Below, piece by piece: positions 2,841-64,000 of a stretch of 64,000 bases of DNA. Position numbers and translations under genes: made by a program. Below the pieces are notes generated by a model. That model worked only from the letters and a program-made list of their open reading frames with translations, made no database searches and was not told the DNA's origin. Location of the stretch: positions 81,531,071 to 81,595,070 of the forward strand of contig CATQJL010000001.1 in assembly GCA_958299035.1 (NCBI GenBank), written 5' to 3'. The stretch's first letter is position 1, and every line of letters begins with the position of its first letter. The stretch comes from Cylicocyclus nassatus (Eukaryota > Nematoda > Chromadorea > Rhabditida > Strongylidae).

Positions 2841-2848
2841 TAGACTAA

Positions 2849-3555
2849 GGGCCGCATGCACTAACCTCCCCGCTGGGGAGGGGATCGCAGCTTAAAAGAA
2901 AGCTTTATATCTCGAAACTCCAGATACCTGGATTTCACATTATGTCTATCCTTAAGTATTCCTACTACCCTTCACTATGAACATGTTTAACAGGAGCGAG
3001 AAGCTCGAATCGCATTTTCCAGCTTTTGTATGATCCCTGATGATCTACGGCGCTTTTCTTTAAAGTCATTTTTCTTTCTCCGAAGTTAACGAAAAACCTC
3101 CAAAGTTGTACAGATTATCCAACCCGACAGTGGCAAGCATGTTCGTGATAAGAACAAATGATGTTTCGAAGTCATGAAATTTTCGATGATCCGCAGGTCG
3201 AAATTTGAGGTTTACCGAAAAAGTCGACTTTTTAAAAACTCATCTGTTCTCATCAGCAACATGCTTAGCATTGTTGTGTTAGATGTTCAGTACAACTTTG
3301 GAAGGTTTTCGTTGACTTCGGAAAAAAAGAAATGACTTTGAAGAAAGCGCCGGGGATCACCAGGGATCATACAAAAACAGAGAAATGCGGTTCGTACAGC
3401 TTCTCGCTCCTCTTCAACATGCTCATAGTAAAGGGTAGTAGGAATACTTACGGATAGGTACACAACGTGAAATCCAGTTATCTGGAGTTTCAAAATAAAA
3501 AGCTTTCTTTTAAGCTGCGATCCCCTCCCCGCGAGGATGTTAGTGCATGCGGCCC
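2849..3555. mobile_element. 707-bp fold-back element with TAA duplication
   Basis: Two arms of roughly 270-300 bp are inverted copies of each other. The left arm begins GGGCCGCATGCACTAAC and the right arm ends with its complement, each flanked by TAA. The arms have diverged by substitutions and small indels, for example around AAAGAAAGCTTT. It lies directly beside the 206-bp MITE and just upstream of the first phosphatase exon. A divergent single arm is visible at about 16,715-16,965. No coding sequence. Confidence 0.85.
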
Positions 3556-3622
3556 TAAGGCAGATTGCACAAAAATTTCTATAAGACGCTTGAATATAAT
3601 ATTTTTTTACACACTGCTTTAG

Positions 3623-25444: not shown

Positions 25445-26278
25445 TTGGACATGGATACTCCTTGCTTTCCTTTAGCTCCTATTGATCGACTTAAGAAAAG
25501 AAAGCTGGAGTTTGAAGACGCCCCAAATTCTTCACCAGACTTCCAGCGAGCTGCAACTGAGCTTATGAAGGACGACTCCTTGCCACTTTACGCAAGGACC
25601 ATAATCGCATATCTTCTTGAGACCCGAAAGGACATTGAAGCTGTAACACAGTGCAATCGTGAGTTGGTATCTGATGTGAAGCGTTTGACCGAAGAAGTAG
25701 CGGCTTTGAAGGCCGAAAACGCGGATTTGAGAAATATGATCAACAAAACCAAAACCAATTCCAGTGTTCACCAGTCTACCTTTCAACCGAGCCAGAACAC
25801 CAGCTACAAGGACGCTGAGCAGCAACGATCACTGGTGTTTATTGGTGTTCCGGAAAAACGAGAAGGAAGCAGCTTTTTCAGGACGTCACATGACTACACA
25901 TGTGTGGGTCAACTTCTAGATTTTTTATCTATTGATTGTCATCCTATTTCCGTTTATCGCATGGGGCGACCCAATATGCGACATGATCGTTTGCTTAAAG
26001 TAGTCCTTCCCTCCTCTTTCTTTGCTAGATTGACTCTCAATAGGGCCCCGCAATTAAAACATTTTCCTTGCAAGCGTGGCATCTATATACGAGCGTCGCT
26101 CTCAAAGGAAGAGAGGGAAAGGGGTAAGATGGATAGGAAATCGAAACGTTCTGTTCCTAGTAATGGTTTTATTGCTTCTGTTAACAATGATATTCAGCTT
26201 GCTAGTATGAGAGAAAGCTCTCCAAATTGTAGTATCCGTAGTGTTCATACTGATGTTCTCGATTCTTTAAACCAGTGA
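25445..26278 (+). CDS. non-LTR retrotransposon ORF1 protein
   Basis: 277-residue nucleic-acid-binding protein of a CR1/Jockey-type element. Residues about 45-105 look like a coiled coil (LTEEVAALKAENADLRNMI), as expected for trimerising ORF1 proteins. Residues about 128-230 fit the RRM-like ORF1 domain of this group: SLVFIGVPEK, LLDFLSID, YRMGRP, LLKVVLPSSFF and KRGIYIRASLSKEERERG. The C-terminus is short and basic to polar. There is no CCHC zinc knuckle. The frame is intact and its stop overlaps the first codons of ORF2. Confidence 0.88.
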   Translation: MDMDTPCFPLAPIDRLKKRKLEFEDAPNSSPDFQRAATELMKDDSLPLYARTIIAYLLETRKDIEAVTQCNRELVSDVKRLTEEVAALKAENADLRNMINKTKTNSSVHQSTFQPSQNTSYKDAEQQRSLVFIGVPEKREGSSFFRTSHDYTCVGQLLDFLSIDCHPISVYRMGRPNMRHDRLLKVVLPSSFFARLTLNRAPQLKHFPCKRGIYIRASLSKEERERGKMDRKSKRSVPSNGFIASVNNDIQLASMRESSPNCSIRSVHTDVLDSLNQ

Positions 26279-29109
26279 GACCTCTTCGGAAAGTAGGTAG
26301 TTCCTTCAAATGCATTCTGACGAACATAAGGTCGGTTCCAAAAAACGCAGCTAGCCTTGCATTCCTTCTCAAATCTGTTGAGCCAAGCATAGTGGGCCTT
26401 ACTGAGACATGGCTTAATGACAGTATCACCAATTCTTGTTTATTTGGAAGTTTTCCTGGGTTTGCTATTTACAGATGTGATCGTCCAAACAAAAAAGGTG
26501 GCGGTGTTGCATTTTTGATAACCAAGGACCTCTACCCTCATCTAGTTTTCTGTGAAGCTGTTCCTAATAGTTATGAATTGTTGTGCATTGATGTCCGTGT
26601 CTGCCAAAAGCTCATACGTCTCATACTGGTTTATAGAACTCCATCCTGCTCAAACCATTCCTGTGAACAAATGACGAAAGCTTTGTCTGATTTGATAGCC
26701 TGCAATTACCCCTCGGTCCTCCTCGGTGACTTCAATTTTCCCTCTATTGACTGGAAAAGTCAACAAATCAATAAAATCAACCCCGCTATCAAATCCTTTT
26801 TGGGTATGTGTAAGAGTCATGAACTTTCTCAGTTAGTTACAAGAGGTACATTGGGAAGAAACATCCTGGATTTGGTCTTCACTAACGAAGAAGCTCTTGT
26901 GTCTGGCATCAGAGTCAACCCACCGGTTGGCTCCAGCGACCACGCTTTGGTTACCTTCTCCTTATGCTGCCCAACAATTACTCGAACCAAATTCAAGTTG
27001 AAGAGAGACTATGCAAATGCAGACATGGTGGGGGCTATTGATTACCTACAAACTATTGATTGGTTGGGGTCTTTCAGTGCAACTGGGTCGGTCAATGAAA
27101 TGTATGAGTTGTTTATCTTTGTGCTTCAGCACACAATCGAACGTTTTGTCCCACTGAAGAAAGTGCCTTCACATAAGGTTAAACTGCCCCAGCATATTCT
27201 CTCCCTCGCTCGTTTACGAACCCAGGCCTGGTTCAAAGCAAAGTCTACCTCCGATCCTACTGCTTTTGCACTGTATAAAAAAATCAATGAGAAATTCGAA
27301 AAGAGACTGAAAAAGTACAACGCTAATTTGGAGAAAAAGATAATAAGATCTGGTAATAAGGCATCTTTTTACAGTCTACTCAATGGTAGGCTAAAAGAAA
27401 GACCAGAATTGGGGGTCATCATCACATCCAATGGCAACGCTCTATTCTCTGACCATGATAAAGCTGAGCACCTTGCGGATATTTTTGAAGATGTATTCGT
27501 AAAGGATGGAGATACTGATTCGCAGCAATCGGTCAACACACGTTTTGATGTGATGAAGGATGTTACCTATTTTGATGACAGTACAATATATGAGCTTCTT
27601 CGTAAGTGGCCCAAATCCAAGTCTCTTACCCCGGATCGCATTCCGCTTCACTTCATAAAAGAAGTGGCACATGTGATTGCAAAGCCACTCGAATTCTTAT
27701 ACAACATAAGTTTGATGAAATCCGAGGTCCCTGATAGGTGGAGGCTTTCGTATGTGACACCCATTCCTAAGAAAAAACCTCACACTTGTGGCCACAATTA
27801 CCGTCCCATCAGCATCACATCTATTTTTGCTAGGTTGTTTGAGAAAATACTAAAGAAACAGATATTGAAGCACCTTACCCGCTATGAAATAATTTCCCCC
27901 TCACAGCATGGGTTTCAAAAAGGGAAATCAACTGTAACAGCTATGCTACAGTGTTTGAACGCATGGACCCGTTCCCTCGATGCTGGGAGGGAAACAGATA
28001 TCATCTATCTGGACTTTACCAAGGCTTTTGATAAAGTCTTACATCCCAAATTGATTTGTAAGCTAAAAATGGTCGGATTACACCCATGCCTTGTAGCTTG
28101 GATCGAGGCCTTTTTGCGAGATCGTACCTTTATTGTTCGAGTCAATGAGGCCTTTTCTCGTCCTCGAGCAATGTCCTCTGGAGTGCCGCAGGGTGGCGTT
28201 CTATCACCAGTTTTATTCAATATCTATACCTTCGAACTTCCTGAGATTGTATCTAACCTTGGAGTCTCATGTTGTGCCTTCGCAGACGATTTCAAACTTT
28301 ATACTACGATATCTGAGCGTAATGACAAGGTCAAATTACAAGAGGCTCTAAATGCTGTGGTAATTTGGTCAAAAGAGTGGGGTTTGCCCATCTCTTTCGA
28401 GAAAACCAAGGTCCTACACTTGGGATCTGGTAGCGCCGAATACGCTTATTATATGGATGGTAACAAGATTGGCTATGAAGATGAGGTGACTGACCTTGGT
28501 TTTTTGCTGGATAACAAGCTTACTTTTGGCCATCATTGTGAGAAAATAGCTAGCATTGGAACCGCCGCTGTCCATAATCTGTTCAGGGCAATGACAACGA
28601 ATGATGTTGAAATTCTACTTCAAGCTTACAAGGTCTATATAAGACCCTTGATTGAGTATGGCACCGTGATTTTCAATCCTTGCACGAGCAAAAATGCTTA
28701 CATATTGGAAAAAGTACAAAACAGCTTCACTAGGAAATTGATGATACGCAGTAGAGGTTTTGTGTATAATCAGTTACCGGGCTTCCAACTTCGAAATAAA
28801 GAGTTGGGGTTGGAAGACTTAGCCACCAGGAGAAGAAAGTTTGATCTCATCATGGCCCACAAAATTTTGTTTGGGGGATGTCAGCTAAATGCGGCTGATT
28901 TCTTTGATCGGAGGACATCTGTAACTAGGGGCGATCCGTGCAAGCTTATGATTAACAGAACGAGAAGGAATGTGAGGAAAAATTTTTTCATATCTAGAGT
29001 CTCTCGCGACCTTGATAAACTTATCAGAATGCAAGTCCTTCCAGTTAGACTTTCTCATTTTAAAACCATCCTTAAGAGCTATCTACTTTCTTCATCTGAA
29101 TATTCATAA
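26254..29109 (+). CDS. non-LTR retrotransposon ORF2: APE endonuclease and reverse transcriptase
   Basis: About 945 residues, uninterrupted. The N-terminal third is an APE-type endonuclease that nicks target DNA: LTNIRS, GLTETWLND, GGGVAFLI, LLGDFNFPSIDW and SSDHALVTF. The reverse transcriptase follows: YRPISI, QHGFQKGKST, IIYLDFTKAFDKV, SSGVPQGGVLSPVLFNIY, and the catalytic FADD near residue 665 (about 28,283). A C-terminal region typical of CR1/Jockey elements follows, with no RNase H. No ATG exists in this frame before the nuclease. The frame opens at 26,254, and GTG at 26,275 overlaps the ORF1 stop as GTGA, suggesting termination-reinitiation or frameshifting. A short-repeat tail lies at 29,217-29,254. 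Confidence 0.92.
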   Translation, partial: CSRFFKPVRPLRKVGSSFKCILTNIRSVPKNAASLAFLLKSVEPSIVGLTETWLNDSITNSCLFGSFPGFAIYRCDRPNKKGGGVAFLITKDLYPHLVFCEAVPNSYELLCIDVRVCQKLIRLILVYRTPSCSNHSCEQMTKALSDLIACNYPSVLLGDFNFPSIDWKSQQINKINPAIKSFLGMCKSHELSQLVTRGTLGRNILDLVFTNEEALVSGIRVNPPVGSSDHALVTFSLCCPTITRTKFKLKRDYANADMVGAIDYLQTIDWLGSFSATGSVNEMYELFIFVLQHTIERFVPLKKVPSHKVKLPQHILSLARLRTQAWFKAKSTSDPTAFALYKKINEKFEKRLKKYNANLEKKIIRSGNKASFYSLLNGRLKERPELGVIITSNGNALFSDHDKAEHLADIFEDVFVKDGDTDSQQSVNTRFDVMKDVTYFDDSTIYELLRKWPKSKSLTPDRIPLHFIKEVAHVIAKPLEFLYNISLMKSEVPDRWRLSYVTPIPKKKPHTCGHNYRPISITSIFARLFEKILKKQILKHLTRYEIISPSQHGFQKGKSTVTAMLQCLNAWTRSLDAGRETDIIYLDFTKAFDKVLHPKLICKLKMVGLHPCLVAWIEAFLRDRTFIVRVNEAFSRPRAMSSGVPQGGVLSPVLFNIYTFELPEIVSNLGVSCCAFADDFKLYTTISERNDKVKLQEALNAVVIWSKEWGLPISFEKTKVLHLGSGSAEYAYYMDGNKIGYEDEVTDLGFLLDNKLTFGHHCEKIASIGTAAVHNLFRAMTTNDVEILLQAYKVYIRPLIEYGTVIFNPCTSKNAYILEKVQNSFTRKLMIRSRGFVYNQLPGFQLRNKELGLEDLATRRRKFDLIMAHKILFGGCQLNAADFFDRRTSVTRGDPCKLMINRTRRNVRKNFFISRVSRDLDKLIRMQVLPVRLSHFKTILKSYLLSSSEYS

Positions 29110-41829: not shown

Positions 41830-42424
41830 TATACTGACTTGTCAAGTCTTATTTCAGTATGCGGTGAATGATATTTCATACACACGATTGAGATTTAGGT
41901 AAGGCGTATTCGCACATGCATTTCCCTACGTTGGACATGACTATCCAATTTGTAAATGAAATGTTAGGTGCTCGCAGTAATTGAAGCAGCGTCCTGCGCA
42001 TATAAATGTTGTCTGTGGAACTGCACATCACCTGCTCTTACTCAAGAGTTTTATCGGCGCGAACGTAGAGTATCAAGCTTTTTAAGAAATTTAATAGTTT
42101 CAACTTGTATTTTGGCGGCATTTTGAGATTCCCAGTAGATCCCAACTCAATAATACAGTAGAAATCCCTCTGTGGCACCTAAATTAGAGTCTATAATAGC
42201 AAAAATTTTCATATGTTAGGTTACAATCGCATAATCTGTACCCTTTCCAATACCTTCACTGCTTGCTTACGTATCTTCAACTCTTTGAGTTAGGGTTCAC
42301 ATTCATTTGGCCGCATTTGTCCCTCTTACTTGATTCCCACCACATTTGTTCCTGAAGAATGGCACTGCTTCAGTATTTCAATGAAGCTGGAGTGTGCAAC
42401 TCACTATTCGAATGTGCAAAAATA
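41830..42424. other. spacer, nothing recognised
   Basis: AT-rich sequence between two mariner-like elements. No gene or repeat ends seen. Confidence 0.35.
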
Positions 42425-43374
42425 TTAGGTTGTTACATAAGTCTTGTTACACTTAACTTCTAACGGGGATAAGTCATACACCTCATATTCTTTGCAGGAC
42501 TCCAAGATACCAATCGATAGAGCAAAGCAAGCTCTACAAGATGGTCTGCAAAAGTTCGCACCAGCTCCGACCCACCGTAAGTTTGCGCCCAAAATCTGAG
42601 CCGTACTGAAATTCAAAAAATCGCGAAAAATTCATATCTTTGTTCAAACAAATCCTACGGATCTCCAACTTGCTCACAAAAATTGCCCACTATATCAAAC
42701 ACTCATTTGTACCGTTGCTGTATTTTTTCCTTATCTAGAAATCGAGAAAAAGAATTTTTTTTAGTTTTTACAAAAACGAAGCTATGCTGTTTCTTTTCAT
42801 GTAGCTGTATACTAGAAGCTCTTAGAAGTATGACCGTAAATTTTCAGCTTCCCAGAAGCCCTAGTTTTCGAAAATTACCTAATTCAGCATTGAACACCCG
42901 AGTGATAAAAGCTAAATTTGGTACTTTTCAAAAACCAGAGCTTCTGAAAAGCTGAAAATTTACGGTTATACTTCTAAGGGCTTGTAGTATACAGCTACAT
43001 GAAAAGAAACAGCATAGCTTCGTTTTTGTAAAAACTAAAAAAAATTCTTTTTCTCGATTTCTAGATAAGGAAAAAATACAGCAACGGTACAAATGAGTGT
43101 TTGATATAGTGGGCAATTTTTGTGAGCAAGTTGGAGATCCGTAGGATTTGTTTGAACAAAGATATGAATTTTTCGCGATTTTTTGAATTTCAGTACGACT
43201 CAGATTTTGGGCGCAAACTTACGGTGGGTCGGAGCTGGTGCGAACTTTTGCAGACCATCTTGTAGAGCTTGCTTTGCTCTATCGATTGGTATCTTGGAGT
43301 CCTGCAAAGAATATGAGGTGTATGACTTATCCCCGTTAGAAGTTAAGTGTAACAAGACTTATGTAACAACCTAA
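42425..43374. mobile_element. 950-bp nearly perfect palindromic fold-back element
   Basis: Starts TTAGGTTGTTACATAAGTCT and ends with the exact complement, flanked by TA. The two arms, about 425 bp each, are nearly identical inverted copies around a loop of about 100 bp (42,850-42,950). As a result the same meaningless peptide can be read on both strands. The mariner-type ends and lack of a transposase make it a non-autonomous fold-back. A diverged single arm lies at about 56,100-56,571. Confidence 0.92.
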
Positions 43375-44079
43375 TATTTGTTAAAAGCCTTGTGCTACCA
43401 ATCCATAACATAGTTTGCTCAGAATCCAATCACAGGGTTGATTTCTATAATCCACATCATACGCAGCTCCACAAAATCTTCTAAGCTAAGCGTCACCTCG
43501 CTAAAAACAAGACTATCCTCTAAGGGGCGCTAATTAGAGAAGGATAGAAGCTAAAAATTATGGAAGTATACTCAACGCAAGGAAACCGTCATTTCCTACG
43601 TAAACACGCATACTGGAGATCAATCTGCGACGTAGCGCAATGTAGAATGGTAGGATATATGAGTATTTTAGAATGTCATCCACTATCATTGAGGTTTAGT
43701 GTAAATAATAAAGAATTAGGTGTGTAAATCGCTGTTTTCATGTTTTGTCCCATGCGGTTGCTCTCGGTGATTTGATCGGAGTAGGACAGCGGGGTCCGGC
43801 AATAGGGAGGTGAATGTCAAGCTGGCAGGGCCCAGGATAAGATTGCATACTTTTAGAAAAGACATGCCCTTCGACACCCAAAATTTTCCCCCTTCGACTT
43901 TCCCTTCGAGCTTTATTTTCTAAACGAGCCCATAAGTATAGTCTATAGTAATCTGTGTAAAAAAATACATTACTTTGTGATGAAAAATTTTATCTAACAG
44001 TTTATTAATCAACCAGTGCACCACCTCTGCCTCGAGGCTTGCACTGGTGTTCCACTATCTAATGCCTTCAGAATGGTAA
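43375..44079. other. spacer upstream of the truncated Penelope-like element
   Basis: No gene recognised. The reverse-transcriptase frame becomes open after the stop at 44,077-44,079, which roughly marks the truncation point. Confidence 0.35.
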
Positions 44080-46153: not shown

Positions 46154-46233
46154 GCTTCCTTGGGAACTACTGACGAGGGGCACCAAGGAAGCCGCACTAC
46201 CGGTATAGTTCTAAGCCCCGAAACCGGATAGTG
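46154..46233 (+). ncRNA. pseudoknotted hammerhead-type ribozyme (family 2)
   Basis: Hairpin 1: GCTTCCTTGG (46,154-46,163) pairs with CCAAGGAAGC (46,183-46,192). Its 19-nt loop is GAACTA, CTGACGA, GGGGC, A. Hairpin 2: CACTACCGG (46,195-46,203) pairs with CCGGATAGTG (46,224-46,233) with one bulged A. Its loop contains TA, TAGTTC (46,206-46,211), TAA, GCCCC (46,215-46,219) and GAAA. GAACTA pairs with TAGTTC (stem I) and GGGGC with GCCCC (stem II). The result is a full hammerhead core with CUGACGA, GAAA-C and GUA; cleavage is predicted between 46,205 and 46,206. All consensus closing pairs (U1.1-A2.1, G10.1-C11.1, C15.2-G16.2) are present. The strand order makes stems I and II kissing-loop pairings. 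Activity is inferred. Confidence 0.85.
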
Positions 46234-48931: not shown

Positions 48932-49648
48932 TTAGGTTGAACCGAAAGTTCTGTCGCACCATTTTCAAAAAATCATAACTTCTTTCGGTCACGACGATTT
49001 TGCGCAATTTAAATTTTGTCTGAAAGCATAAAACATGTAGTTTTCAAAAGCTTCCCGGGAAGTTTTCGACACGCTCAGGCGGCAGAGATAAAAATGAAAG
49101 AACGAGATCTTTCGAAATTCGGAATTTTTAAGCAAGAATTCTAGAAATTCAGAAACAGTGCGATAAAACAGAAAAGCCATTATCCTTATTTCTCTTACGT
49201 TTCATTACTATCTGAATCAAGTTTGTGCTGATCGAGCTCTTCTTTCAAAAGTTATGATTTTTTGAAAAATAATGCCGAAAAATCAGTTTCCTAAAAATTC
49301 TTAAGAGGATTTTATGGCATTTTTAACTTCTGAAAGAAGACCTCGATCAGCCCAAACTTGACTTAGTTCGTAATCAAATAAAAGAAAAATTAGGATAATG
49401 GCTTTGTTGGATTTTATCGCAAAGTTTCTGAATTTCTAGAATTCTCGCTTAAAAATTCCGAATTTCCAATGATCTCGTTCCGAAATTTTTATCTCTGCAA
49501 CCTGAGCATATTGGAAATTCCGCAAAAAAAAAATTGGAAACTGCAAGCTTTACGCTTTCTGACATTTTTTGAATTTCGCAGAATTGTTGTGATGGAAAGA
49601 AGTTATGATTTTTTGAAAATGGTGCGAACAAACTTTCAGTTCAGCTAA
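48932..49648. mobile_element. 717-bp diverged mariner-like element
   Basis: The left end TTAGGTTGAACCGAAAGTTC and the right end ACTTTCAGTTCAGCTAA are inverted relatives, and the pairing continues through CACCATTTTCAAAAAATCAT. The right flank lacks the TA duplication, so the copy is old or its end has mutated. Confidence 0.7.
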
Positions 49649-56099: not shown

Positions 56100-56571
56100 G
56101 TGCTCCAAGCTAGAATTCAAATTTTTCGAGAACTAAAGCTTGTAGAGAGCTGAAAATCTAGGTCTGTACTTCTATAGGCTTGTGGTATACAACTATTATG
56201 TGGGGATGGCACAGCATCACTTTGGCAAATGCACGAAAATTCCCGTTTTCTTGATTTCTAATGGAGGAAAAAATACGGCAAAGGCGTATATAGATATCTT
56301 ATGTGGATAGTGTTTACGTGAGCAAGTTAGAATTTTTGTAAGATTTTTATGAACTGAGTTGCGATTTTTTTCGATTTTTCGGGCAATTGAATCTTTTTGG
56401 TTTTTGGGTCGAAACTCGAGGTAGATCAGAGCTGCTGCTAAATCAAGAGAGCCATCTTGTAGAGCTTGCTTTGCTCTATCGAATGGTACTTTGCAACCTA
56501 TCTAGAAGCGAGAAGTGTATGACTTATTGAGGTTGAAATTCAAAACGGGCATTAATTTCCGGACAACCTAA
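56100..56571. mobile_element. diverged single arm of the palindromic mariner family
   Basis: Aligns by eye with the right arm of 42,425-43,374: GTAGAGCTTGCTTTGCTCTA, GTGTATGACTTAT and the terminal CAACCTAA with TA following occur in the same order. The opposite arm is not found. Confidence 0.65.
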
Positions 56572-57386
56572 TAGTCAACGATTATGGTGATTGTGGAGGG
56601 ACTTTCTATGAGAAATTGTAAAAAGTGCGTCTGTCTTATTTTGTTCCCTTTCTGTTTTCCCAACCTTTTTATGTCGACCTGGGAATTATTGTGCAAAATG
56701 ATGAGAAATGGAGGAACAATCCAGACAACGTCAGGAAGAAAAAAAAGTTGTTTTGTCATGCAAGTATTCTTCATAAATAAAGAAAACAGTTTTTTGTCTT
56801 AACTGCTCTTCCCTTCTCTTGGCATGTTTTTTCTTAATAGCACGGCTTTTAATTATTTTTAGCGAAAAAAGCGTGAAATTGAGCATTGTTTTATCTCGGC
56901 TTCCCCGCGGTTAGCAGTTCGCGGTCCCGCAGTGAAATCAGCAAATGGAAAGTCGCTAAATGCAAAATTACGAAATTATTTTGGCGTCGTCTGCGCATTT
57001 CTATTGCCTTTTCGGTTCTGTTTGTTCTACTGTTGTATTTGTTCATGAAATTGATTTGCGTAATGTATGCGTTGACCTCCACGCAATCAATGATATCCAG
57101 CATCAAAAGGATTAATGAGATTTTATGTTTTTTTCTCCTCTCATGACTTTTCACTTTTTTTTATGTCCTTCAACATCGCTTCATGTGATTCGCTATAAAT
57201 GACGGTACTTAGAGTGCTGTGGCCATCATGCGCAACTCGCACAAGGGGTGGCCATATAGCGCATATTTTGTGTATTTTCTATGCGCGACTCACACAGGCG
57301 GGCCATGCCGTATCGTACTGTGCTTCTGGCATAAGAGCACTATATAAACCGTCATTTGAGAGAAAGGCGCGGTTTTGTCAATTTCT
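56572..57386. other. spacer left of the Penelope-like unit
   Basis: No gene recognised. An open frame at 56,886-57,146 includes a hydrophobic stretch (IAFSVLFVLLLYLFM) but has no supporting splice or homology evidence. Confidence 0.35.
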
Positions 57387-57537
57387 ACAATACCGCTCAC
57401 AGAATGTGCAAAATTTCCGTGAATGTCGCAGAATTCCAGGAATTTTGCGAAATTCCCAAAATTTCGCGAACCTTCGCGGAATTCCTTGAATTCTGCGACA
57501 TTCACGGAAATTTTACACATTCTGTGAGCGGTATTGT
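57387..57537. repeat. 151-bp imperfect palindrome
   Basis: ACAATACCGCTCACAGAATG at the left and its complement at the right, with about 60-bp arms through AAATTTCCGTGAATGTCGCA and a short GGAATTTTGCG-type centre. It ends 61 bp before the start of the Penelope-like direct repeat. It may be an independent small fold-back element. Confidence 0.85.
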
Positions 57538-57598
57538 ACGTGTAAGGCTGTACATGATCGCGAAGGTCTTGCTGTTGATTTTGCGGCCATTACTCGCT

Positions 57599-57924
57599 CA
57601 CTAATAGAAAAAGCAAAAAGAAAAGAAGACAAGGATCAAATATTCTATGAAAAAATATTGAACAAAATAAAAAACTAATAAAAAGGAACATCCGTTTCGT
57701 TCCTACCCTTAGACGGATACCAAATAGTTAATAAGCCCTCCCCGGAACTCATCAGTAAGGAGGGAGGGCTTTGGTTAGTAAAAAAATCATAAAAAACTCA
57801 CCTTATCCTTGTCCAATCGTAACATCCAATGTCGGTGGCGAAGGGGCGAAGATGATCGAATTCGCATTTCGTACCAACTGCCTGCAAATAAAATGATACT
57901 CAGCCAAGTTTTGGCGCATCATAA
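57599..57924 (-). repeat. terminal direct repeat of the Penelope-like unit, left copy
   Basis: Begins CACTAATAGAAAAAGCAAAA and matches 63,674-64,000 almost base for base; one T is added in the second copy near 63,846. The copies are 6,075 bp apart. Read on the minus strand it lies 3' of the reverse transcriptase and carries the pseudoknotted hammerhead. Penelope-like elements typically have such pseudo-LTRs. The second copy runs off the window, so the full repeat length is unknown. Confidence 0.92.
57686..57771 (-). ncRNA. pseudoknotted hammerhead-type ribozyme (family 1, left copy)
   Basis: On the minus strand hairpin 1 is AAGCCCTCCC / GGGAGGGCTT (57,771-57,762 with 57,742-57,733). Its 19-nt loop is TCCTTA, CTGATGA, GTTCC, G. 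Hairpin 2 is ATCCG / CGGAT, extended by three G-U pairs. Its loop holds TC, TAAGGG (57,711-57,706), TA, GGAAC (57,703-57,699) and GAAA. TCCTTA pairs with TAAGGG (stem I, last pair U-G) and GTTCC with GGAAC (stem II). The cleavage triplet is GUC, predicted cut between 57,712 and 57,711. Consensus core nucleotides and closing pairs are complete. The architecture matches family 2 at 46.15 kb with unrelated stem sequences. Confidence 0.87.
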
Positions 57925-58014
57925 AATGTGATTTCTACGCAGCCAAATGTTGCGTCATTTTTGAGTCGGAGCAGAGCATCGATCAATACTAACATTGACC
58001 TCCAAAAGGAAGTG

Positions 58015-58334
58015 TGTGGAATGTGTGATCATATGTGTATATGTATGTCTTGTATGTTTCTGTATAAGTGTGTGTGTAAGTGTGATTATGTGTATATGTA
58101 GGTGTTTGTGTATGTGTATATGTATGTGTATCTGTATCTGTATGTGTATGTGTGCATGTGTGTGTATGTGTGTATGTTGTGTATGTGTGTATGTGTGTAT
58201 ATGTGTGTGTATGTGTGTGTATGTGTGTGTATGTGTGTATGTGTGCATGTGTGTGTATGTGTGTATGTTGTGTATGTGTGTATGTGTGTATATGTGTGTA
58301 TGTGTGTATGTGTGTGTATGTGTGTATGTGTGTA

Positions 58335-58368
<34 letters not shown>

Positions 58369-58800
58369 CGGATAAGTATATTTGTATGCGTATATGTATG
58401 TGTATGAGTATGTGTAAGTGTATGTGCATGTGTTTGAACATGTGTATACGTAAGTGTATTTGTGTGTGTATATGTACATGTTTGTGTATGTGTTAGTATA
58501 TGTGTATGTGTATGTATATGTGTGTGTGTTTGTGTGTTTGTGTTTGTATGTGTATGTGTATGTGCATGTGTATGTGTATGTGTTTGTGTGTGTATATGCA
58601 AGTGTATGTGCATGTGTATGTGTATATATGTATGTATGTGTATTTGCATGTATATGTATATGTGTATGTGTGTATGTATATGTGTGTATGTGTATGTGAA
58701 TATGTATGTGTATGTGTGTACGGTGTCTATGCACGTGCAGGTGTATGTGTATATGTTTATGTTATTGTGTTTGTGTTTTTTCATGTTTGTGTGTATAGAT
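58015..58800. repeat. long (TG)n/TATGTG microsatellite
   Basis: About 790 bp of alternating TG with interspersed TATG units. It lies between the reverse transcriptase stop and the ribozyme-bearing repeat. Long His/Thr/Tyr or Cys/Val/Met open frames over it, on both strands, are artefacts of the repeat. Confidence 0.95.
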
Positions 58801-63620: not shown

Positions 63621-63669
63621 CCAGTAGCTAGTAGAATCGGGAAACCCTCGAGTTACTACTAGCTACTGG
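63621..63669. repeat. 14-bp perfect hairpin next to the right direct repeat
   Basis: CCAGTAGCTAGTAG and CTACTAGCTACTGG are perfect complements around a 21-nt loop. It ends 4 bp before the right copy of the direct repeat and has no counterpart beside the left copy. Function unknown. Confidence 0.8.
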
Positions 63670-63673
63670 CATA

Positions 63674-64000
63674 CACTAATAGAAAAAGCAAAAAGAAAAG
63701 AAGACAAGGATCAAATATTCTATGAAAAAATATTGAACAAAATAAAAAACTAATAAAAAGGAACATCCGTTTCGTTCCTACCCTTAGACGGATACCAAAT
63801 AGTTAATAAGCCCTCCCCGGAACTCATCAGTAAGGAGGGAGGGCTTTTGGTTAGTAAAAAAATCATAAAAAACTCACCTTATCCTTGTCCAATCGTAACA
63901 TCCAATGTCGGTGGCGAAGGGGCGAAGATGATCGAATTCGCATTTCGTACCAACTGCCTGCAAATAAAATGATACTCAGCCAAGTTTTGGCGCATCATAA
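63674..64000 (-). repeat. terminal direct repeat of the Penelope-like unit, right copy (cut by the window end)
   Basis: Near-identical to 57,599-57,924 and still matching at the last base of the window. In the orientation of the reverse transcriptase this is the 5' copy. If the identity continues into TG-repeat and reverse-transcriptase sequence beyond 64,000, the unit is part of a head-to-tail array. Confidence 0.92.
63761..63846 (-). ncRNA. pseudoknotted hammerhead-type ribozyme (family 1, right copy)
   Basis: Every element of the left copy recurs at +6,075: hairpin 1 arms at about 63,808-63,817 and 63,837-63,846, CTGATGA at 63,824-63,830, TAAGGG at 63,781-63,786, GGAAC at 63,774-63,778 and GAAA at 63,770-63,773 (minus strand). 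Predicted cut between 63,787 and 63,786. Cleavage at both copies would free a unit-length RNA. Confidence 0.87.

Follow-up and report, generated by a model that had tools for sequence, protein, structure and literature searches.

Cylicocyclus nassatus is a nematode of the Strongylidae, and the window analysed here is a stretch of 64,000 nucleotides (nt) of its genome (GenBank assembly GCA_958299035.1, contig CATQJL010000001.1, positions 81,531,071 to 81,595,070 of the forward strand). On its minus strand the window carries a Penelope-like retroelement, in which an open reading frame (ORF; P0001) lies between two direct repeats, the pseudo-long terminal repeats (pseudo-LTRs), and a second Penelope-like ORF (P0002) is found on the plus strand. 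Each pseudo-LTR of the minus-strand element holds one copy of a hammerhead ribozyme motif whose strands stand in a permuted, crossing order, and a third copy with its own helix sequences begins 176 base pairs (bp) past the end of P0002 (Table 1). We read the motif as a cis-cleaving hammerhead of the type called CSG that would process the RNA of its host, a Penelope-like retroelement which carries it in the pseudo-LTRs and whose domain order is probably permuted (GIY-YIG at the N terminus); on the sequence evidence set out below, we give this reading a probability of roughly 0.87.

The blocks of the hammerhead are named C (CUGANGA), S (the cleavage-site block) and G (the GAAA block). Read on the minus strand, copy 1 runs K, I, CUGAUGA, II, K', III', GUC, I', linker, II', GAAA, III, where K is a stem of 10 bp that bridges stems I and II and closes a loop of 19 nt. 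An earlier note on this DNA had claimed that all core nucleotides and stems I-III of a hammerhead were present, that their strands crossed, that a 10-bp bridging stem presented a 19-nt loop, and that the RNA would be cut between 57712 and 57711. The core and stems were matched base for base, the strand order was found to be C-S-G, the bridging stem was read in the same way and the same predicted cut was arrived at; conservation and covariation among relatives back the identity as a hammerhead, the order, the bridging stem and the position of the cut. The invariant core CUGANGA, GAAA and NUH is present in all three window copies, in which any gap from CUGANGA to stem II is 1-2 nt at most. CUGAUGA starts at 57755 in copy 1 and at 63830 in copy 2 (minus strand), 6,075 bp apart; the earlier note does not mention copies 2 and 3. 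Family 1 denotes the type of copies 1 and 2, and family 2 that of copy 3.

Table 1. Features of the window that bear on the hammerhead motif and its host elements (window positions; paired strands of the minus-strand copies are listed 5' to 3').
Feature	Position	Strand	Sequence or remark	Basis
Copy 1 of the CSG hammerhead	57690..57771	-	in the downstream pseudo-LTR	sequence, descriptor scan with shuffles, relatives
Copy 1, stem K, 5' strand	57771-57762	-	AAGCCCUCCC	
Copy 1, stem I, 5' strand	57760-57756	-	CCUUA	
Copy 1, core CUGAUGA (block C)	57755-57749	-	CUGAUGA	sequence, relatives
Copy 1, stem II, 5' strand	57748-57744	-	GUUCC	
Copy 1, stem K, 3' strand	57742-57733	-	GGGAGGGCUU	
Copy 1, stem III, 5' strand (block S)	57718-57714	-	AUCCG	
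Copy 1, U16.1 and C17	57713 and 57712	-	triplet GUC ends at 57712	
Copy 1, predicted cleavage site	57711..57712	-	after C17	analogy with the hammerhead NUH rule
Copy 1, stem I, 3' strand (block S)	57711-57707	-	UAAGG	
Copy 1, linker I'-II'	57706-57704	-	3 nt	
Copy 1, stem II, 3' strand (block G)	57703-57699	-	GGAAC	
Copy 1, GAAA core (block G)	57698-57695	-	GAAA	sequence, relatives
Copy 1, stem III, 3' strand (block G)	57694-57690	-	CGGAU	
Copy 2 of the CSG hammerhead	63765..63846	-	in the upstream pseudo-LTR; K-to-III sequence identical to copy 1	
Copy 2, predicted cut	between 63787 and 63786	-		
Copy 3 of the CSG hammerhead	46154..46233	+	family 2; helix sequences differ; NUH is GUA	
Copy 3, start of block C	46170	+		
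Copy 3, predicted cut	between 46205 and 46206	+		
Downstream pseudo-LTR	57591..58042	-	direct repeat with 63664-64118, 98.9% identical over 455 alignment columns	
Upstream pseudo-LTR	63664..64000	-	extends 118 bp past the window end	
Penelope-like ORF P0001	58823..61738	-	971 amino acids (aa); N-terminal GIY-YIG-like region, then reverse transcriptase	
Penelope-like ORF P0002	44080..45978	+	632 aa; reverse transcriptase part; upstream of copy 3	
Flank X	56429..57604		1,176-bp exact direct repeat of 64122-65297 (past the window end; L118), on either side of the element	

The window was scanned with a descriptor for all six block orders at a threshold of at least 14 of 15 pairs, and 60 dinucleotide shuffles served as the control. 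The scan returned three matches, every one in the order CSG and none in the nested circular order of hammerhead types I, II and III, whereas the shuffles gave no CSG match and two of other orders altogether. At 13 of 15 pairs the window gained one SCG match, and the 60 shuffles yielded 26 matches, 2 of them CSG. Rfam reported no family over the window at gathering thresholds; under a lax threshold Hammerhead_3 scored 16 bits, where 48.5 are needed. A chance assembly of hammerhead words has the shortness of the parts in its favour and nothing else, and against it stand the shuffles, the many genomic copies and the pairing statistics given below. The existence of a family already rules it out, and its probability is next to nil.

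The earlier note had held that no hammerhead class of this topology was described; in this it was mistaken, since the order C-S-G is that of the type-CSG hammerhead of Eckert, Friedrich, Weinberg and Weinberg (2023, NAR 51:2850; PMC10085705). That paper, in its available sections, defines six block orders and describes types SGC, CSG and GCS; type CSG comprised two sequences, CSG-1 and CSG-2, from metagenomic DNA only and with modest covariation, both of which cleaved in vitro at the expected site. The motif of C. nassatus shares with them the block order, the crossing stems, the helix joining I and II and a short linker between I and II, the match being one of topology and description. The published transcripts have 77 and 78 nt, flanking nucleotides perhaps included (PMC10085705), and the motif from K to III has 82 nt in family 1 and 80 nt in family 2, the outer portion of III included. 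For the two metagenomic sequences, the sections at hand name neither a host nor an element (PMC10085705), whereas here a single large genome supplies many copies housed in a retroelement, a larger amount of covariation, and a sub-variant in which A9 is followed by an additional hairpin. The type-SGC hammerhead (HRIMA-1) is likewise permuted in a non-circular way and has a stem that connects I with II and an I-II linker of typically three nt, but it has another block order and, as far as the available text describes it, was found in metatranscriptome contigs bearing hairpin ribozymes, among their non-coding regions (PMC10085705). Penelope-like elements and metazoan retrozymes carry minimal type I hammerheads, self-cleaving motifs in the same kind of retroelement, but these follow the nested order C-G-S in the accessible parts of the respective papers (PMC7229834, PMC11167929). 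A literature search, with subscription papers and preprints outside its scope, found among the papers listed no report linking type CSG to a retroelement or a named genome. The class is therefore already described; what is new is its genomic home, its abundance, its covariation and the extra-hairpin sub-variant.

A DNA search of the 514.7-Mb genome with each motif gave 526 and 506 first-look candidates, and 40 of the 40 scored for each family matched by similarity; candidates past these 40 per family do not count as confirmed copies. Raw pattern counts were set aside as evidence because the forward and reversed patterns are unlike in composition. Sixty loci from the DNA search were cut out (three being the window's own copies), of which 11 had no usable parse. 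Among the 49 parsed loci, similarity to reverse transcriptase was present within 1.5 kb in 26, upstream in sense in all 26, and 23 had none. A protein search with the second element's protein listed 75 matches, from which 1.2 kb past the C-terminal end was fetched for 39 copies, picked as diverse and mostly complete there, and parsed with tolerance for an insertion after CUGANGA. The ribozyme was found in 35 of these 39 regions, all in sense, so the motif lies in sense downstream of the reverse transcriptase in related elements as it does in the window. In the four regions without a parse, nothing was seen in L078 and L096, L098 was broken off after block C, and L099, a parser miss, was homologous with a damaged core. 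The fetched loci, selected for resemblance to the CSG motif or its element, amount to 286,528 bases, and nowhere in them did a nested order attain 14 of 15 pairs; a scan of the upstream 2-kb regions of 8 full-length elements found no second CSG copy. Pattern and protein searches of viral contigs gave no relative, and the 9 stretches that the pattern picked out in prokaryote genomes included no hammerhead at 13 of 15 pairs.

A joint MAFFT alignment of both families misaligned the core and was rejected; the families were therefore handled apart and joined by blocks. The family-2 alignment held 22 distinct sequences, 25 pairs and 549 cells, with extra-hairpin forms excluded and with L079, L080, L094 and L097 (misaligned in stem K) and L088 removed before the count of 22 rows. 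In it, 97.6% of the cells were paired, against at most 57.4% in slid registers, 9 of the 25 pairs were altered on both sides, and the covariation score was 0.218 compared with 0.097 in shuffles, none of 500 reaching it. Both sides had changed at 6 of the 10 pairs of stem K and at one pair each in stem I (C-G to G-C, 2 of 22 rows), stem II (G-C to C-G, 4 of 22 rows) and stem III (C-G to U-A, 2 of 22 rows). The earlier note had proposed to check whether stems I and II covary genome-wide; the check was run in part, and speaking for the pairing are the single two-sided change in each of these stems and the fact that families 1 and 2 pair with different sequences in their stems, I and II included. 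Joined by blocks, the families gave 90 parsed rows, of which five (L055, L109, L111, L115, L117) were judged spurious by eye and removed. In the remaining 85 rows, which comprise 36 distinct helix sets, 96.2% of cells were paired, where shuffles averaged 71.9%; the parser asks for some pairing, most core letters and 11-15 nt from the cut to GAAA, and because it selected rows by these features, pairing percentages and core conservation are inflated. With a family-2 covariance model in which only K and III were paired, the next-ranking loci in the window were those of family 1, at a weak score of 11.6 bits (E 0.75).

Spacing within the motif bears on whether it acts in one molecule. All 85 parsed rows place GAAA 13 or 14 nt from the cut, as do scans that left the spacing free, hence the I'-II' linker has 2-3 nt in intact copies; on the side opposite this linker, about 0-1 nt separates K from stems I and II in most rows. 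Spacing of this kind is important mainly when the parts belong to a single molecule, and this argues against the alternative that the blocks act between two molecules or tandem units, S of one copy joining C and G of another into the nested order C-G-S, with the pseudoknotted monomer inactive. In support of such pairing between copies, a title cited in Eckert et al. (2023) has small Penelope hammerheads cleaving as dimers (PMC10085705), and the element in the window has two copies at the distance given above. The published CSG transcripts cleave, concentration dependence going unreported in the available sections (PMC10085705), which also speaks for action in cis; we regard the two-molecule alternative as quite improbable.

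Substitution patterns were compared at 30 family-1 loci found by similarity and free of the parser. The core and stems I-III had 23 substitutions in 1,227 site-copies, and linkers and flanks 173 in 1,934 (Fisher p 5e-18, an optimistic value, given the relatedness of the copies and the inclusion of two from the window itself among the 30), with stem K less constrained (37/597). For the core by itself, similarity-found family-1 loci had 7 substitutions in 329 against 133 in 1,395 in the flanks. This constraint is hard to reconcile with a structured retroelement RNA, for example a protein-binding site, that resembles a hammerhead in sequence and no longer cleaves, as are the variation at position 7, the one free hammerhead core position (U in 50, C in 24 and A in 9 of the 85 parsed rows, the remaining two having other core changes), and an H17 that is A, C or U (the parser barred G). 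Core residues altered in some copies, such as L020, L062 and L099, would suit a non-cleaving RNA, an explanation that we hold to be very improbable.

Nested folding was consistent with part of the architecture. The earlier note had proposed two adjacent hairpins, and for family 2 the minimum-energy fold indeed contains stem K and the stem III hairpin; in the minimum-energy fold of the window's copy 1, K is kept but stem III is displaced by an alternative hairpin. An outer pairing ACCA/UGGU around K is not retained in distant family-1 copies.

If cis-cleavage by a type-CSG hammerhead is accepted, stems I and II of the sense transcript would join stem III in the catalytic core and, with their far ends, stem K, so that two three-way junctions would have stems I and II in common. 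Stem K and the 3-nt linker would then hold I and II side by side, replacing the ordinary loop-loop contact. With the predicted self-cut after C17 in each pseudo-LTR, an RNA of unit length (6,075 nt) would be set free, its ends being a 5'-OH and a 2',3'-cyclic phosphate; this RNA could be a substrate for circle ligation or reverse transcription and may in this way take part in transposition. The similarity of ten family-1 loci, one being the window's second copy, ends at about 57595-57605, which places the 3' end of the element about 107 nt past the predicted cut. DNA copies therefore extend past the predicted site of cleavage, and the template may either escape cutting there or undergo it only afterwards.

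Several observations weigh against cis-cleavage and its proposed role. The upstream repeat starts 331 nt before the predicted cut, so that the 5' end of the element is not at the cut, and another element's 5' end does not begin at a cleavage site either. The minimum-energy nested fold of copy 1 pairs II' with a downstream GUUCC; this GGAAC/GUUCC hairpin is not retained in more distant family-1 copies. The published rates of CSG cleavage are slow, 0.004 and 0.026 per min in the available sections (PMC10085705). In family 2, two rows each carry the two-sided changes of stems I and III, and because these rows are close relatives each change is possibly one event; four rows carry that of stem II; further pair types were not above shuffles (110/500). 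The joint analysis showed no excess of two-sided changes (17, shuffled mean 16.3) or of pair types (37, mean 35.0), and core letters besides position 7 are largely imposed by the parser. At 30 close family-2 loci the core (5/330) did not differ from the flanks (14/922).

The host proteins were examined with Pfam. P0001 matched RVT_1 at 27.9 bits, below the Pfam cut-off of 29.6, and P0002 at 33.7 bits, above it. Pfam called no GIY-YIG domain in P0001 or P0002, and the GIY-YIG-like region of P0001 is deduced from its alignment to relatives, GIY-YIG being called in 15 of 24 aligned proteins. Among four relatives scanned singly, GIY-YIG lay at residues 52-155 in three, with RVT_1 behind it in two (P0005, P0014). 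We take the order of GIY-YIG before reverse transcriptase to be Naiad-like; Craig et al. in 2021 reportedly described Naiad-type Penelope-like elements with a permuted GIY-YIG/reverse transcriptase order. The likeness of the present elements to that type lies in the domain order of P0005 and P0014 and in the pseudo-LTRs. Within the same literature scope as above, no report joined Naiad and a hammerhead.

The flank X repeat far exceeds the usual length of a target-site duplication, and a repeat of some 814 bp, 99% identical, flanks a second element (L113:741-1554 and L075:388-1201); six other elements compared had no such repeat within the fetched stretches. Between the reverse transcriptase stop and the downstream pseudo-LTR, a long CA/TA simple repeat occupies 58032-58717 (minus strand). 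Just downstream of the element, 57386-57538 forms a nearly perfect palindrome, some 150 bp long (self-match 89.6%), which matches microRNA-precursor models below Rfam thresholds and is perhaps the remnant of a short inverted-repeat transposon. Elsewhere in the window, the large inverted repeats at 42420-43379, 48938-49643 and 2848-3559 are 78-97% self-complementary over 718-960 columns and are perhaps fold-back transposons, and 26254-29109 (plus strand) is a 951-aa open frame with endonuclease and reverse transcriptase domains, a long interspersed nuclear element (LINE)-type element.

In six of the 35 related elements with a ribozyme (L079, L080, L088, L094, L097, L103), CUGAUGA is separated from stem II by 15-16 nt, and the insert can form a hairpin in three sequences, GUGU/ACAC, GGGUU/AACCC and GGAC/GUCC. 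The other related elements parsed with one extra nt after CUGAUGA (12) or with none (17). Known hammerheads have at most 1-2 extra nucleotides at this place according to the available sections of Eckert et al. (2023; PMC10085705), and these six of 35 elements have more. The cleavage triplet is GUC in 6 of 6 extra-hairpin forms and GUA in 14 of 17 insertion-free forms among L070-L108. This sub-variant makes it possible to test whether a helix that follows A9 is tolerated in a hammerhead core.

One genome now provides type CSG with numerous copies, with covariation, with a host element and with a constant position downstream of the reverse transcriptase. We tentatively propose, at somewhat less than even odds, that a Penelope-like lineage swapped the nested type I hammerhead for the pseudoknotted CSG form as the resident ribozyme that processes its RNA, that such elements are the source of the two orphan CSG sequences of 2023, and that a subgroup added a core helix between A9 and stem II. 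If true, the helix between A9 and stem II would be a hammerhead layout absent from the surveying 2023 paper, as far as its available sections go (PMC10085705). Because nested type I hammerheads are also reported from Penelope-like elements, in the accessible part of that report (PMC7229834), the origin of non-circular permutations becomes testable, as does the question of whether retroelements use permuted hammerheads to make unit-length or circular RNA.
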